A stretch of 43,326 nucleotides of DNA, from positions 1 to 43,326 of the forward strand of contig JAIPEX010000006.1 in NCBI GenBank assembly GCA_021736945.1, written 5' to 3'. Below the pieces are notes generated by a model, which worked only from the letters and a program-made list of their open reading frames with translations, ran no database searches and was not told the origin of the DNA. This stretch comes from Halanaerobiales bacterium. GTDB lineage: Bacteria > Bacillota > Halanaerobiia > Halanaerobiales > M55B127. Shown piece after piece: positions 24,484 to 30,819 of this stretch; the first letter of the stretch is position 1; every line of letters begins with the position of its first letter. The position numbers and the translations under genes are program-made.

Positions 24484-24517
24484 TAAAAGAGCATAATTAA
24501 AATTTTAATTATGCTCT
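24484..24517 (-). terminator. Perfect 30-bp palindromic terminator of operon E
   Basis: Positions 24488-24517 are a perfect 15+15 palindrome (AGAGCATAATTAAAA and its complement) followed by TTTT on the minus strand. The stop codon of the MogA/MoaB gene lies inside the 5' arm, so termination structure and coding end overlap. The remaining 24297-24483 is AT-rich spacer upstream of operon D where I could not fix a promoter. Confidence 0.82.
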
Positions 24518-24990
24518 GTAACATTACCTTTTAAAATGTCTATTCCATGTGGTATTACATTTGTAATTGCCTCTAAACATTCTTTAACTGCTTTAGGGCT
24601 ACCTGGTAAATTTACAATTAAAGTATCATTTCTAATTACTGATTTCGCTCTTGATAAAGCAGCTTTTTCAGTGATTTTAATAGTTTCCAATCTCATTAAT
24701 TCTGCTATACCAGGGGCATCTTTTTCCATCACTGCCGAGGTGGCTTCCGGAGTTACATCTCGAGGCGCAAATCCTGTCCCCCCAGTAGTTAATATTAAAT
24801 CAATGTCATCTCGATCAGATAATTTAATTAATTCATTTTTGATCTCTACAATTTCATCGGGAATAATATTATAATATTTCTTCTCAGCTCTCAACTCTGA
24901 AAGCATTTCTATAATCACGGGACCGCTTTTATCTTTCCGTTTACCTTTAGAACCTTTATCACTGATCGTTAATACTGCTGTTTTAATCAT
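24505..24990 (-). CDS. mogA: Molybdopterin adenylyltransferase family protein (MogA/MoaB)
   Basis: A 161-residue protein that adenylylates molybdopterin before metal insertion. The family signature TGGTG is at residues 69-73 with GFAPRDVTPEAT following, and the start SDKGSKGKRKDKSGP matches the substrate-binding N-terminus. Sequence length fits MoaB/MogA. It is the last gene of the tungstate/cofactor operon, directly after a MoeA-like gene, which supports action together with MoeA. MogA and MoaB homologues cannot be separated with certainty here. Confidence 0.9.
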   Translation of the reverse strand: MIKTAVLTISDKGSKGKRKDKSGPVIIEMLSELRAEKKYYNIIPDEIVEIKNELIKLSDRDDIDLILTTGGTGFAPRDVTPEATSAVMEKDAPGIAELMRLETIKITEKAALSRAKSVIRNDTLIVNLPGSPKAVKECLEAITNVIPHGIDILKGNVTEHN

Positions 24991-25009: not shown

Positions 25010-26920
25010 TTATTCTATTATATTTATCTCACCACTGTTTTTTAAATCATAGCCCTTTAATTCTTTTACTACCTTTTGGAAAGGGGATGATTTTATAATA
25101 TTAATCAATCGTTTTATCCTTGGGTCGTTAAGACTTTTCTTTTTTAATATTATATCATATTTCTCTTTTTTTATCGGGATGAAATCAAGATCAACGGCTG
25201 ACGCGGCCGCTCTGATTCCTAACGCCGCATCTGCTGTTCCTTCTGCTACTTGCACAGCTGCTCCCATGTGAGTTAATTCTTCTTTCTCATAACCTTTAAT
25301 ATTAGTTTTATCAATATTATTGGTTTTTAGCAAGTAATCAAGTAACACTCTTGTACCTGAACCACGCTGTCTATTGATAAATTTTATATTTTTTTCTTTT
25401 AGACTATTTATATCTTCTAGATTTTTAGGGTTATTCTTTTTTACCATTAAACCCTGTTCGCGATGAACTAGATTTATTACAGCCATCTTTTCATTTTTGA
25501 ATAAATCATTTATATAGGAAATATTATATTCCCCAGTTTCCGGTTCTAATAAGTGAGCACCTGCAAGTTGGCACTCCCCTCGTTTTAAAGAAACCAAACC
25601 AGACATACTTCCGACAGACTGAATATTTAATTCGAAGTTTTCTTTATTTTTCTTAATTTGGTTGATTAGTTTATCAACTGCAAGATCATGACTCCCGATC
25701 ATCATTAAGTTATTTTTAATCTTACTTTTTGATTTTAAAATATATACATCTGTGAAATCTCCGGAAAATATACCTTCTTTGCTTTCTTTAATCGGCATAA
25801 CTCCATCAGCATTTATTAGAGAATGCATTGAAGCCGATCCTCTTTTTTGAGGGACTGCTACCAGTTCATTCTCAATTTCTGTTAGATTAACTCTAACAAA
25901 TTCTTTTAAGCCGGCTGTTGAAGGAATTTTTTTCTTAACTTTGGCTTTTAATTTAATTGGAAGTCCATATTCCAGTCCATACATACTTTTAATTAAGGGT
26001 TTTACAAAAAGGTTGAAATCCAATAATGCTGATAAAGGATAACCAGGAATACCTATTACAGGTTTATTATTAACTTCAGCAATAATAAGTGGTTTACCAG
26101 GCATTATCTCTATACCATGAACAAGCACTTCTCCCAGTTTTTGGAGAATACTTAATGTGAAATCTTCACGGCCTGCCGAGGAACCAGCAATTATAATAGT
26201 CAAGTCATTTTTTCCGTTTGCTTTAATAATATTTTTCTTTATTTTATCATAATCATCTTTAACAATACCGTAATTTGTGGCCTGGCTGCCCCAGTTTTCA
26301 GCTGATAATTTTAACATCGTAGAATTAAAATCAACAAGCTGACCTTTTTTGATATCACTCTCTGGACTAACTAATTCACTTCCGGTCGGTATTATCCCAA
26401 CCTTAGGTTTTTGATAAACCTCTACTTCAGTAACTCCAGCTTCAAGCATTGCTCCTATATCAAATACTTCAATTTCAGTATTAGCTGGAAGAATCAATTG
26501 TTGTTTGATTACACTTTCACCAATGCTTCTGATATTATGCCAAACTGGTACACTTTTTATTACTTCAATTTCTTCTTCTGAAATTATTTCTATTTCTTCA
26601 ATTTTAATAACTGCATTAAATTTTTGAGGGATAGAGTCTCCAGTGTCTACATATGTAAAATCTTTCCCTTTTTCCAAGATTACAGGTTTACGCTCACTTG
26701 CATAATTTGTTTGGTCCGCCTTTACAGCTATTCCATCCATTGCAGAGGCATAAAAATCTGGTGCAGATTTTTCGGCATAAACTGCTTGAGCAGTTACTCT
26801 ATTTTGAGAATTTTTGGTTTTAACTTTTTCAGTTTTTAACTCATAATCTTTAAAATGTTCTAGTAATAGTTTTTGAGCTTTCTCTAAAGAAGCTTTTTTT
26901 AAATAAATATTACGTTCCAT
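25010..26920 (-). CDS. moeA: MoeA fused to a molybdate/LysR-type substrate-binding domain
   Basis: A 636-residue fusion. Residues 1 to about 405 are MoeA (molybdopterin molybdenumtransferase): YASAMDGIAVK, DTGDSIPQKFNAVIKIEE, PTGSELV, AGSSAGREDFT and MPGKPLIIAEV are its conserved blocks. Residues about 410-630 form a second domain of the periplasmic-molybdate-binding-like type (COG1910), with IGSHDLAVD, NRQRGSGTRVLLDY and VAEGTADAALGIRAAA, but without a signal peptide, so it is cytosolic. It may deliver or sense tungstate/molybdate for insertion into the cofactor. It lies between the second MoeA gene and mogA in operon E. Confidence 0.92.
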   Translation of the reverse strand: MERNIYLKKASLEKAQKLLLEHFKDYELKTEKVKTKNSQNRVTAQAVYAEKSAPDFYASAMDGIAVKADQTNYASERKPVILEKGKDFTYVDTGDSIPQKFNAVIKIEEIEIISEEEIEVIKSVPVWHNIRSIGESVIKQQLILPANTEIEVFDIGAMLEAGVTEVEVYQKPKVGIIPTGSELVSPESDIKKGQLVDFNSTMLKLSAENWGSQATNYGIVKDDYDKIKKNIIKANGKNDLTIIIAGSSAGREDFTLSILQKLGEVLVHGIEIMPGKPLIIAEVNNKPVIGIPGYPLSALLDFNLFVKPLIKSMYGLEYGLPIKLKAKVKKKIPSTAGLKEFVRVNLTEIENELVAVPQKRGSASMHSLINADGVMPIKESKEGIFSGDFTDVYILKSKSKIKNNLMMIGSHDLAVDKLINQIKKNKENFELNIQSVGSMSGLVSLKRGECQLAGAHLLEPETGEYNISYINDLFKNEKMAVINLVHREQGLMVKKNNPKNLEDINSLKEKNIKFINRQRGSGTRVLLDYLLKTNNIDKTNIKGYEKEELTHMGAAVQVAEGTADAALGIRAAASAVDLDFIPIKKEKYDIILKKKSLNDPRIKRLINIIKSSPFQKVVKELKGYDLKNSGEINIIE

Positions 26921-26935
26921 TAATATAACCTCTTT

Positions 26936-28195
26936 CTAATTAAAATATATTATTTCAACATTAGAACCTTTTTTAAGACCCTCATTTTCACTCTCTATTT
27001 CTATATACCCATCAGATTCAATAAAGATTCTCATAAAACTAGACTTGCCTAAAATAGGATCGGCATAAACTTTACCGTCTTTATGTATCTTTTTAACCGG
27101 TACTGCTTCTTCCCGCCCCCGATCTGAAGATAGATTTCTATTTAAAACTGCTGACTGTCTAATTAAGTCTTTTTCAATCTCACTTTCTATAATTCCTACC
27201 TCATATTCTCCACAAATTGTTTTAACTAAAGGTTTTACAAACTTATTTGTTATCATCCAGGCTGAACCAGGATGTCCGGGTAAACCCATAATAGGAGTTT
27301 GATTAATCTGCCCCAAAATTGTTGGTTTACCTGGTTTAACTTTTAATCCGTGGATTAATACTCCCGGCTCTCCTAATTCATTAATTACATCTACTGTAAT
27401 ATCTTTTATACCAGCTGAACTTCCCCCGGATACAAGGATTAAATCAGCCTCTAAATGTTTTTCAATACTTCTTTTTAGTTCCTGATAGGTATCTTCGATG
27501 ATACCTTCTTTTATAACATCAGCTCCCACTTCTTTAAGGAGGGAACTAATTGTATATGTATTTATATCTCTAATCTGCCCGAAATTCATCTCCTCTTCCG
27601 GAGAAATTAACTCATCACCTGTAGATATGATGGCAATTTTTGGTTTTTTATACACCGCTACATCAATAAGACCTAAACCAGCAAATGCTCCCATATCTCT
27701 AGTTTTTATTCTCTTTCCTTTTTTAAAAATTGTCTCCCCTTTTTCAATTTCTTCCCCCTTTTTGATAATGTTTTCTCCTACTCCGGCTGACCTATAAGAT
27801 TCGATCATTTCATCTGAAATTTGTTCTGTATGTTCAACCATAACCACACAGTCTGCACCCTCTGGAAGCATACCACCAGTAGGTATATAGGCAGCTTCTC
27901 CTTCTTTAACTGTTAATTTAGTTTCTTCTCCCATTTCTACTTCTCCAATCAAATCTAGATAAGCAGGCAGTGATTCAGAAACCCCTTGAATATCTTTTGA
28001 TCTGACTGCATAACCATCTACTGTTGAACGGGGAAAGGAAGGTAAATTTTCTAACGCATTTATTTCTTCTGCTAGAACTCGATTTATGCTATTTTCGAAA
28101 TTAACCTTTTCTTTTTCAAGCTCTTTTATATTTATATTTTCTCTGATTGCTTCCCAAAATTCGGATGGTTTTTTTAAGTCTAAAAAATTCTGCAA
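26936..28195 (-). CDS. moeA: Molybdopterin molybdenumtransferase MoeA
   Basis: A 419-residue single MoeA. Conserved parts are FPRSTVDGYAVRS, PEGADCVVMVEHTE, ISTGDELISPEEEM, VSGGSSAGIKDITVD and GLKVKPGKPTILG. It inserts metal into adenylylated molybdopterin. The start is TTG 28195, behind GGGAGG eleven bases upstream; there is no better start nearby. The gene follows tupC by 18 bases. Two MoeA paralogues in one tungstate operon suggest separate handling of tungsten and molybdenum, as is known in some anaerobes, but which protein uses which metal cannot be read from the sequence. Confidence 0.93.
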   Translation of the reverse strand: MQNFLDLKKPSEFWEAIRENINIKELEKEKVNFENSINRVLAEEINALENLPSFPRSTVDGYAVRSKDIQGVSESLPAYLDLIGEVEMGEETKLTVKEGEAAYIPTGGMLPEGADCVVMVEHTEQISDEMIESYRSAGVGENIIKKGEEIEKGETIFKKGKRIKTRDMGAFAGLGLIDVAVYKKPKIAIISTGDELISPEEEMNFGQIRDINTYTISSLLKEVGADVIKEGIIEDTYQELKRSIEKHLEADLILVSGGSSAGIKDITVDVINELGEPGVLIHGLKVKPGKPTILGQINQTPIMGLPGHPGSAWMITNKFVKPLVKTICGEYEVGIIESEIEKDLIRQSAVLNRNLSSDRGREEAVPVKKIHKDGKVYADPILGKSSFMRIFIESDGYIEIESENEGLKKGSNVEIIYFN

Positions 28196-28213: not shown

Positions 28214-28897
28214 TTAAATTTCCATATTTTCATATAGGCCGCTTTTAATGACTCTGCCGTCTTCTAAAAGTGTTATATAATCTGCATAGTTTTCAATCTG
28301 ATATAAGTCATGGGTTATAAGTAAGATTGTTATTCCTTCATCAATTAATTTTGAGAATAAGTTATTAAAGTATCTACTGCTCTCATAATCTAAACTATTA
28401 TTCGGTTCATCGATAAACAGTATTTCAGGATCTGTTATTAATGCCCGTGCAATAGATGCTTTTTGTCTTTCCCCACCTGATAATTCATTATGAGATTTAT
28501 CTAATAGATGAGTTATTTCAAGTTCTTCAGATATTTCTCTAACCTTTTTTTCTACTTTTCTATCTTTCATTTGTCTTAATTTTAAAGGCAGTCCAATATT
28601 ATAAGCTATTGTTCCTTTAAATAAATATGGGTTCTGCCAAATTACAGAAAATCTTCTTCTTAATTCTAATGCCTCTTTTTTATCCTTTTTCACTTTATCT
28701 CCTCTATAAAAAATACTTCCTTTAAAATCAGTATCTATCATACTTAATATGTTTAACAAAGTAGTTTTACCACTGCCATTTGGTCCTATTAGAAAATTAA
28801 AAGAACCTTCATAGATTTTAATATTTTCTAAATCCAAAACATATTCTTTGTCATAACATTTTTTTATATTATTTGCTTCTAAAATTATATTTCTCAT
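28214..28897 (-). CDS. tupC: Tungstate ABC transporter ATP-binding protein
   Basis: A 227-residue ATPase: Walker A GPNGSGKTT at residues 38-46, signature LSGGE at 139-143, Walker B EILFIDEP around 160-167 and the switch histidine in ITHDLYQIE. It overlaps the permease gene by ATGA and belongs with the TupA and TupB genes upstream. It hydrolyses ATP to import tungstate. The substrate assignment rests on the operon, since ATPases of the tungstate, molybdate and phosphate systems look alike. Confidence 0.9.
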   Translation of the reverse strand: MRNIILEANNIKKCYDKEYVLDLENIKIYEGSFNFLIGPNGSGKTTLLNILSMIDTDFKGSIFYRGDKVKKDKKEALELRRRFSVIWQNPYLFKGTIAYNIGLPLKLRQMKDRKVEKKVREISEELEITHLLDKSHNELSGGERQKASIARALITDPEILFIDEPNNSLDYESSRYFNNLFSKLIDEGITILLITHDLYQIENYADYITLLEDGRVIKSGLYENMEI

Positions 28898-29589
28898 TTT
28901 GACTCACCTGACTGGAAAAAATATAGTATAAAATTAATAATAAAAGACAGTGATAAAAGTATTATACCTAATGCTAGGGCAAAACCAAATCTCCCTTTAT
29001 TGGTTTCCATTGCTATTGCGGTTGTGATTGTTCTTGTAAAGCCTTTAATATTACCACCAAGCATCATAGATACTCCAACTTCACCAATTACTCTTCCAAA
29101 GCTTGTTATCAAAGCTCCAATTATCCCATATCTAGCTTCAGAAATGAGCAACCGGAACTTCTGAGACCCGGTTGCTCCTAATGACAAAGCTGTTTTATAC
29201 ATTTTTTCATCAATATCATGAATAGCATTTCTTACTAATGCTACAACTATTGGTAAAATCAGCAAAACTTGACCAATTATAATACCTTTAATAGTAAATA
29301 GTAATCCCCACTCTCCCAATACACCTTTTCGGGAGATCATTGAATAAACAAATAAACCTAAAACTACAGTGGGTAAACTTAGTAATGTATTTAATACAGT
29401 ATTTAAAAAGTATTTTCCTTTAAAATCAATCTTACTAATTAAAATACCTAACGGAATACCAAATAGTGCAGCTAGAAATGTTGAAGTTAGTGATAATTTT
29501 AAAGAAGTTCCTACAACATTAGTAACTTCAGAATCTAAACTAAGTATTAAATTAATTGCCTCTTTTAACGCAGAAAAAATGTAGTCCAT
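28894..29589 (-). CDS. tupB: Tungstate ABC transporter permease
   Basis: A 231-residue inner-membrane permease with about five to six helices of the binding-protein-dependent type. The EAA-like coupling loop is ALSLGATGSQKFRLLISEARYG. The segment EVGVSMMLGGNIKGFTRT followed by TTAIAMETNKG is characteristic of TupB and related tungstate permeases. It forms the transmembrane path of the uptake system between TupA and TupC. It follows tupA by 19 bases. Confidence 0.92.
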   Translation of the reverse strand: MDYIFSALKEAINLILSLDSEVTNVVGTSLKLSLTSTFLAALFGIPLGILISKIDFKGKYFLNTVLNTLLSLPTVVLGLFVYSMISRKGVLGEWGLLFTIKGIIIGQVLLILPIVVALVRNAIHDIDEKMYKTALSLGATGSQKFRLLISEARYGIIGALITSFGRVIGEVGVSMMLGGNIKGFTRTITTAIAMETNKGRFGFALALGIILLSLSFIINFILYFFQSGESK

Positions 29590-29608: not shown

Positions 29609-30451
29609 TTATTTTAAATTTTCAGATGTAATTGCTGATGGATGGAATAAAACTTTGCCGTATGCAGTATACTCATTAATGATTTTTTGTCCTTGCTGAG
29701 AAGTAATATATCCGACAAAGGCCATAGCCATCTGATAGTTTACATGTGAATGATAAGCAGGATTAACTGGTATTATACCATAAGGATTAAATAATTCCGG
29801 ATCTCCTTCTACTAATATTTCTATATCCAAGTCGGAACTATATGCTAAATATGTTCCACGATCAGCTAAAATATATGCCTCTTTTTCATTTGCAACATTA
29901 AGACTAGCTCCCATACCTTGACCGGTTTCTATATACCATTTACCTGCAGGTTCTACATTTGCACTACTCCAAATAGATAATTCCTTTTTATTAGTACCAG
30001 AATCATCTCCTCTAGAAACAAAGGTGCTTTCTGTGTCAGCAATCTCTTGAAAAGCTTTCTTTGCTTTTTTCATACCTTTAATATTAGCAGGATCTGCTGG
30101 TGGACCTAAAATTACAAAATCATTGTACATTACATCTCTTCTGTTTACTCCATAACCTTCTTCCACGAATTGTTTTTCCGCATCTTTGGCATGTACTAAT
30201 ATTATATCTGCATCTCCATTTTCTGCTAAACTAATTGCCTTACCTGTCCCAACTGAGACGACATCCACTCTGATATCAAACTTCTCTTCAAAAGGTGGAA
30301 TTAATTCATCTAACAAACCCGAATTTTCCGTGCTGGTAGTTGTTGCTAATACTAATTTTTCTTGTCCCTTTACTGTATTGTCTACAAAAACAAAACTCGC
30401 TACTAAGACTAAAAGCGACATTCCAATTATTAAAGATTTATTTTTAAACAT
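29609..30451 (-). CDS. tupA: Tungstate-binding protein
   Basis: A 280-residue exported solute-binding protein. The N-terminal signal peptide (about residues 1-30, KNKSLIIGMSLLVLVASFVF) has no lipobox cysteine, so the protein is free in the periplasm or anchored by the signal. The mature start LATTTSTENSGLL (T37-T38-T39-S40) is the oxyanion-binding loop typical of TupA; VGTGKAISLAENGDADI and SRGDDSGTNKKE are the other ligand-binding segments. It captures tungstate with high affinity for TupBC. It is the first gene of operon E and is preceded by a structured leader. The ATG has AGGAGG ten bases upstream. Confidence 0.93.
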   Translation of the reverse strand: MFKNKSLIIGMSLLVLVASFVFVDNTVKGQEKLVLATTTSTENSGLLDELIPPFEEKFDIRVDVVSVGTGKAISLAENGDADIILVHAKDAEKQFVEEGYGVNRRDVMYNDFVILGPPADPANIKGMKKAKKAFQEIADTESTFVSRGDDSGTNKKELSIWSSANVEPAGKWYIETGQGMGASLNVANEKEAYILADRGTYLAYSSDLDIEILVEGDPELFNPYGIIPVNPAYHSHVNYQMAMAFVGYITSQQGQKIINEYTAYGKVLFHPSAITSENLK

Positions 30452-30533
30452 TTACTAATACCCTCCTAAATTTTTTGTTACATTGTAATTTATTAAATAT
30501 CATTTTTGTGTGTATTAATTTAGTAAGCTACCC

Positions 30534-30600
30534 TCCTTTCCAATAACCTATAATTTATTAATTCCATTTGGAATTAATATCAAGAATATACTGGAAAGGC
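30534..30600 (-). promoter_or_regulatory. 3' part of the operon E leader: competing complementary segments
   Basis: CCTTTCCAG on the transcript (30599-30591) is exactly complementary to CTGGAAAGG in the upstream aptamer region (30665-30657), enclosing the terminator. A second copy, TGGAAAGG (30542-30535), could pair with the same segment. Between them is a hairpin, ATTAATTCC with its complement around 30558-30580. The downstream copy resembles a ribosome binding site but has no start codon close by. Confidence 0.5.
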
Positions 30601-30610
30601 CTCATCTCAA

Positions 30611-30641
30611 AATAAAAAATCCGATACCAACAAGGCACCGG
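30611..30641 (-). terminator. Attenuator in the leader of the tungstate operon
   Basis: CCGGTGCC (30641-30634) pairs with GGTATCGG (30628-30621), allowing G-U pairs, and is followed by a TTTTTTATTTT run. It lies 160 bases upstream of tupA, downstream of the folded leader and inside the same transcript, so premature termination is the likely control mechanism. CTTTCC just before the stem can pair with GGAAAG of the aptamer region and would compete with it. Confidence 0.78.
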
Positions 30642-30656
30642 AAAGAAAAAATATCT

Positions 30657-30743
30657 CCTTTCCAGAATGGGAGGTTTAAAAGTTTCCTTTTTAAACCCTG
30701 TCGGCTATATGACCATAGTGTTTCAACCTTAGGTCAATATAGC
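30657..30743 (-). ncRNA. Candidate riboswitch aptamer (Moco/Tuco-like) upstream of tupA
   Basis: Read on the minus strand, the leader folds into two hairpins. The first (30743-30704) has arms GCTATATTGACC and GGTCATATAGC and contains CCTAAG (30733-30728) facing TATGG (30717-30713), the sequence of the 11-nucleotide GAAA-tetraloop receptor. The second (30697-30673) is a ten-pair stem capped by a GAAA loop (30686-30683). They are joined by CGACAGG, and a short CTCC/GGAG stem follows. A tetraloop with its receptor means a compact tertiary fold. Position before tungstate transport and MoeA genes suggests sensing of molybdenum or tungsten cofactor. Family assignment is inferred; I could not align it to a covariance model. 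Confidence 0.65.
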
Positions 30744-30819
30744 TCGAAGATAAAATATTTTTATTTTATTCTCTTAATACATTTCTTCAATATAATACTT
30801 TAAAATCCTTGTTAAAAAT

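Follow-up and report, generated by a model that had tools for sequence, protein, structure and literature searches.

A P3-less Moco riboswitch with a terminator, probably an OFF switch for a tungstate-uptake operon, in a Halanaerobiales bacterium

The minus strand upstream of a tupA-like gene in this Halanaerobiales bacterium encodes a folded leader, and the locus raises three questions: to which class of RNA the leader belongs, what it senses, and in which direction it would control the genes behind it. In the window (the whole stretch of 43,326 nucleotides that was analyzed), the leader precedes genes for a TupABC-like transporter, two MoeA proteins and a MogA-like protein:

29609-30451, minus strand: tupA-like gene for a tungstate-binding protein, the first of the operon (PF12849, 5e-46; NF041772 TupA, 3.5e-71)
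28894-29589, minus strand: ABC permease, TupB-like (PF00528)
28214-28897, minus strand: ABC ATPase, TupC-like (PF00005)
26936-28195, minus strand: moeA (MoeA_N, MoCF_biosynth, MoeA_C)
25010-26920, minus strand: moeA fused to a periplasmic-binding-protein-like domain (NF011068, above cut-off)
24505-24990, minus strand: mogA/moaB-like molybdopterin adenylyltransferase (PF00994; NF006932, just below cut-off)

The first gene scores 239.7 bits against NF041772, below the curated cut-off of 400, so we call it TupA-like.

A preliminary description of positions 30534-30743 had proposed a receptor hairpin, a GAAA-capped hairpin, a CGACAGG linker and an intrinsic terminator, and had taken the tetraloop and its receptor to imply tertiary docking, as in large riboswitch aptamers, with a suggested link to tungsten or molybdenum cofactor. 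All four elements were located on the minus strand, where the leader folds at -75.3 kcal/mol, 5.7 standard deviations below dinucleotide shuffles. The covariance-model search that it had suggested gave a clear answer. When the whole window was scanned against Rfam 15, the single above-threshold match was RF01055 (Moco/Tuco riboswitch; Molybdenum/Tungsten riboswitch aptamer), at 30761-30639 on the minus strand, with 79.3 bits (cut-off 36 bits) and an E value of 9.8e-18, spanning the full model (1-135 of 135). By this match, the leader is a standard P3-less (Tuco-type) member of the described Moco riboswitch family and no new class; the aptamer with its tetraloop/receptor pair and the link to tungsten or molybdenum cofactor are likewise supported. 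The extent of the element needed correction: the interval 30534-30743 does hold the named elements, but it leaves out the P1 5' strand (30751-30746), and its portion at 30600-30534 lies outside both aptamer and terminator. The parts of the aptamer are as follows:

30639-30761, minus strand: Moco/Tuco riboswitch aptamer (RF01055), full length, without P3 (79.3 bits)
30746-30751, minus strand: P1 5' strand AUCUUC, pairing with GGAGAU at 30658-30653 (RF01055 alignment, fold, covariation)
30653-30658, minus strand: P1 3' strand GGAGAU (RF01055 alignment, fold)
30704-30743, minus strand: P2 hairpin with the tetraloop receptor CCUAAG (30733-30728) / UAUGG (30717-30713) (RF01055 alignment, fold)
30697-30703, minus strand: conserved core CGACAGG, at the site of the missing P3 (alignment gap over P3)
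30672-30698, minus strand: P4 hairpin, capped by the GAAA tetraloop at 30686-30683 (RF01055 alignment, fold)

The P3 columns are deleted in the RF01055 alignment, and a few bases link GCC to the AGGG core (GCCGACAGGG). What had been described as a linker is the conserved core of the Moco family at the place where the optional stem P3 is missing; its consensus in relatives is CCGATAGGG. The order of the elements, receptor before tetraloop, had been taken as an argument against the c-di-GMP-I class and as room for a new metal-cofactor sensor. The exclusion of c-di-GMP-I stands: RF01051 had no match at the gathering threshold in the window, and this candidate was rejected. The core and the element order of c-di-GMP-I aptamers (the order as given in the preliminary description) differ from those of the tupA leader. 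The other half of the argument does not hold. In Regulski et al. (2008; PMC2408646), who also note the GNRA tetraloop and receptor as a likeness to c-di-GMP-I (GEMM) RNAs, the Moco RNA has a GNRA loop ending P4 and its receptor in a bulge of P2; this is the order seen here, which argues for a Moco RNA. The tupA leader further shares P1, P5 and the conserved core nucleotides with that RNA, and the position upstream of transporter and cofactor-synthesis genes. It differs from the E. coli moaA RNA, which has P3 and a ribosome-binding site in P1 (PMC2408646), in being P3-less and having a terminator. Nothing defining separates it from the P3-less "Tuco" subgroup of the same source, whose members lie near tungsten-related genes and in some cases carry a terminator, as in Syntrophomonas wolfei; the present locus adds one more host and the particular antiterminator that we propose below.

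The preliminary description had staked its reading on covariation of the hairpins in relatives, and this was found. An RF01055 search of 61 genomes (that of the window and those of relatives) gave matches in 44; 83 aptamers were parsed, including that of the window, and 73 P3-less leaders were aligned for pair counting. Paired cells made up 86.5% of the total, compared with 67.4% in shuffles and 37-53% in slid controls, and 25 of 30 pairs show changes on both sides (11 of the 11 counted in P2, nine of 11 in P4; P5 is nearly invariant). The covariation score was 0.524, compared with 0.193 for shuffles, none of 500 of which reached it, and 0.06-0.14 for slid controls; the shuffle control is inflated by relatedness, whereas the slid control retains relatedness and yet collapses. 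P3 is clearly present in one of the 83 aptamers (contig C41 of genome G060), upstream of a moaA-like gene; by eye, the others are without P3 or too divergent to call.

These results bear on two readings of the leader that would set the Moco family aside. A new class of metal-cofactor sensor had one support, the element-order comparison; against the full-length, high-scoring RF01055 match, the conserved core and the shared order of receptor and tetraloop, it is practically inconceivable and was rejected. An ordinary leader that forms a hairpin and attenuates constitutively, with no response to a ligand, could draw on the promoter-like sites, since a promoter scan returned matches at chance level only. 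(One of them, TTGAAG-16-TAAAAT at 30790-30763, would start the RNA just before P1, as a chance-level match that is no evidence for a promoter.) The covariation across 73 leaders, the invariant core and the consistent gene context make such a leader extremely improbable, and folding energy, RF01055 score and covariation alike place the structure beyond chance.

How a Moco riboswitch could control this operon can be read from the 3' part of the aptamer and the sequence behind it, where two further hairpins overlap:

30620-30642, minus strand: hairpin of an intrinsic terminator, with a U run behind it (terminator scan; -13.7 kcal/mol)
30654-30665, minus strand: antiterminator 5' arm CUGGAAAGGAGA, overlapping the 3' strands of aptamer P5 and P1 (fold, complementarity)
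30638-30649, minus strand: antiterminator 3' arm UUUUCUUUCCGG, which shares 30642-30638 with the terminator 5' arm (complementarity, fold)

The terminator has 9 bp, and one such hairpin was found where shuffles would give 0.1. The antiterminator is a predicted 12-bp hairpin capped by a UAUU loop, at -13.4 kcal/mol; when the downstream sequence was shuffled 200 times, no shuffle gave complementarity this strong (p=0.005). Its first arm holds the P5 3' strand and most of the P1 3' strand, and its second arm the first five bases of the terminator 5' arm. Because of these overlaps, aptamer and terminator can coexist and the antiterminator excludes both. It is kept in the ligand-free minimum-energy folds of growing transcripts, with energies that exclude ligand, tertiary docking and kinetics. 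Family membership, covariation and two mutually exclusive hairpins are thus what the computation establishes. From these we infer that the tupA leader directly binds Tuco (the tungsten cofactor), and which way it controls the operon. With little tungsten cofactor in the cell, CUGGAAAGGAGA in the 3' part of the aptamer would pair with UUUUCUUUCCGG; the antiterminator so formed would block the terminator, and the tungstate transporter and MoeA/MogA genes would be transcribed. Bound cofactor would hold P1 and P5 in the aptamer and leave the CUUUCCGG strand free, so that the terminator could form and transcription stop. Feedback on uptake and on the assembly of the cofactor would likewise call for an OFF switch. 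We regard it as quite probable that the leader is a P3-less, Tuco-type Moco riboswitch with a terminator platform, acting as an OFF switch for tungstate uptake and the MoeA/MogA genes.

The antiterminator varies among relatives. In 26 of 47 relatives' leaders with other first genes the complementarity is significant, and in 22 of the 47 it falls in the terminator 5' arm or loop. Among the other tupA leaders it is mostly weak or lies elsewhere, with p<=0.05 in two of 17. Many tupA leaders of one family gave no signal when only the 3' core was scanned; with the P5 loop included, CCGGAA/UUCCGG emerged in the tupA leaders of that family, mostly not significant.

The choice of Tuco over its relatives depends on context, here as for the whole family (PMC2408646). 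In that paper, P3 is missing in 58 of 176 examples; P3-less RNAs occurred in 19 organisms, 17 of which carried genes that point to tungsten-cofactor metabolism. Deletion of P3 from the E. coli RNA left its specificity unconverted (PMC2408646), and for this reason the absence of P3 alone is a correlate. In our case the P3 stem is absent and the host carries, with its TupA-like gene, six AFOR_C (AOR-family) genes and one PF00384 gene (molybdopterin oxidoreductase). Two further RF01055 copies in the same genome are P3-less, and both precede AOR-family (tungsten-enzyme) genes. The copy on contig C12 is followed by an AOR gene, a MoaD/ThiS-like gene and an apparent ThiF/MoeB-like gene; behind the copy on C47 come a ferredoxin-like gene and an AOR-family gene of 697 aa. 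From its gene content, the source organism is very likely a tungsten user.

The same family and OFF platform could nevertheless serve the molybdenum cofactor, both cofactors or a shared molybdopterin precursor, and not Tuco specifically. We consider this possible, if on the unlikely side: the unconverted specificity of the E. coli deletion (PMC2408646), the use of MoeA and MogA for Mo and W alike, and the PF00384 gene of this genome speak for it, whereas the P3-less form, the tungstate-type transporter and the six AOR genes to one PF00384 gene point to Tuco, as do, on our reading, the near absence of P3 from the 83 copies and the moaA-like gene behind the one clear exception. An ON switch, in which bound cofactor would prevent termination before the tup operon, gains some ground from the AOR-gene leaders, which have the same aptamer and appear built for ON, so that the aptamer does not itself fix the direction. 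In the tupA leader the aptamer itself supplies, with its 3' strand, the sequence that competes with the terminator, and folding of the aptamer frees the terminator; together with the logic of uptake feedback, this makes an ON switch improbable. For the preferred reading, a Tuco-responsive OFF switch, the terminator platform would offer a simple read-out of whether Tuco itself is the ligand. As a clean example of a described family, the leader mainly serves to annotate its operon and to support the association of P3-less RNAs with tungsten.

Comparison with the sister leaders suggests OFF wiring for uptake and ON wiring for tungsten enzymes. The AOR-first set comprises the C12 copy (L034) and 17 leaders of relatives. 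A terminator was found in none of these 18 leaders, from 18 genomes, versus 47 of 64 other leaders (Fisher p 8e-9, a value that ignores relatedness); close relatives are numerous among the 18. The Shine-Dalgarno sequence of these leaders begins 9-15 nt past the core of the aptamer and finds its complement in the P1 5' strand and the adjoining flank, as in UAUACCUUC/GGAGGUAUA, CGCCUCC/GGAGGUG and UAAUAUACCUUC/GGGGGUAUAUUA. Measured against a null in which the Shine-Dalgarno and the P1 core were kept and the flanks shuffled, the fit is better (p<=0.05) in 11 of 18 AOR-first leaders, none of 16 tupA leaders and two of 43 others. Complementarity of this kind with no terminator predicts cofactor-ON translational switches for tungsten enzymes. 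At C12, bound cofactor would let the P1 5' strand AUACCUUC pair with the P1 3' strand and leave the Shine-Dalgarno free; with no cofactor, AUACCUUC would pair with the Shine-Dalgarno region GGAGGUAU and hide it. An enzyme gene does not by itself mean ON: the ferredoxin-first AOR leaders, that of C47 included, mostly have terminators. We see an even chance that the P3-less aptamer works in opposite directions within one genome, terminator-based OFF for tungstate uptake and Shine-Dalgarno-based ON for the C12 AOR operon. If so, tungsten enzymes would be made only when there is cofactor to fill them. No report of ON wiring for AOR genes was found in the open-access literature searched. The accessible text of PMC2408646 mentions both platform types in one organism, without proposing OFF for uptake and ON for AOR.

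The stretch between the terminator and tupA has features of its own:

30535-30599, minus strand: second strong hairpin (folding)

This hairpin matched no Rfam family. Its 5' arm CCUUUCCAG is complementary to the aptamer's CUGGAAAGG over 9 nt without a mismatch, and its 3' arm GGAAAGGAGGG is Shine-Dalgarno-like, with no start codon; a comparable CCUCCUUUC/GAAAGGGGG hairpin occurs in a tupA leader of the same genus (L083). The repeated TTGGAAAGGAGG hinted at a second, degenerate aptamer in 30440-30640, which was rejected, as RF01055 gave no match there even at E<=5 and weak matches were at chance level. A 19-codon frame at 30503-30444 on the minus strand (ATG ATA TTT AAT AAA ... AAT GTT TAA) runs across the start codon of tupA, in a different frame, and is probably due to chance.

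Among the relatives, eight P3-less Moco RNAs (L063, L077, L078, L079, L081, L087, L091 and L095), mostly followed by a terminator, lie before an ECF-type importer operon with an S component (PF09819-like), two ATPases and a CbiQ-like T component. The operon also encodes MobB, an FMN-binding protein, a phosphodiesterase/nucleotide pyrophosphatase and secreted proteins of the Oxidored_molyb fold in which a conserved cysteine is missing, and the importer could serve metal oxyanion import or pterin cofactor salvage. Such loci may be of the kind filed under sulphite oxidases for S. wolfei in PMC2408646. Variant Moco RNAs occur in only three of 59 genomes of the class (L104, G028 C115:1569; L105, G048 C1:1059708; L106, G006 C15:442). 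In these, P5 changes from CC/GG to GC/GC (CCUGCC...GCAAAGG), the P4 loop is of GUAA type, P2 has no clear receptor and a Shine-Dalgarno follows closely. Behind them lies either a ferredoxin-like gene, accompanied by AOR in G028, or a sigma-54 activator together with an alcohol dehydrogenase; their ligand specificity is possibly altered. At one further locus (L042, G046 C27), a stretch of about 8 kb contains three Moco RNAs: one precedes a ModA-like transporter, one a sigma-54 activator and alcohol dehydrogenase, and one an AOR gene.
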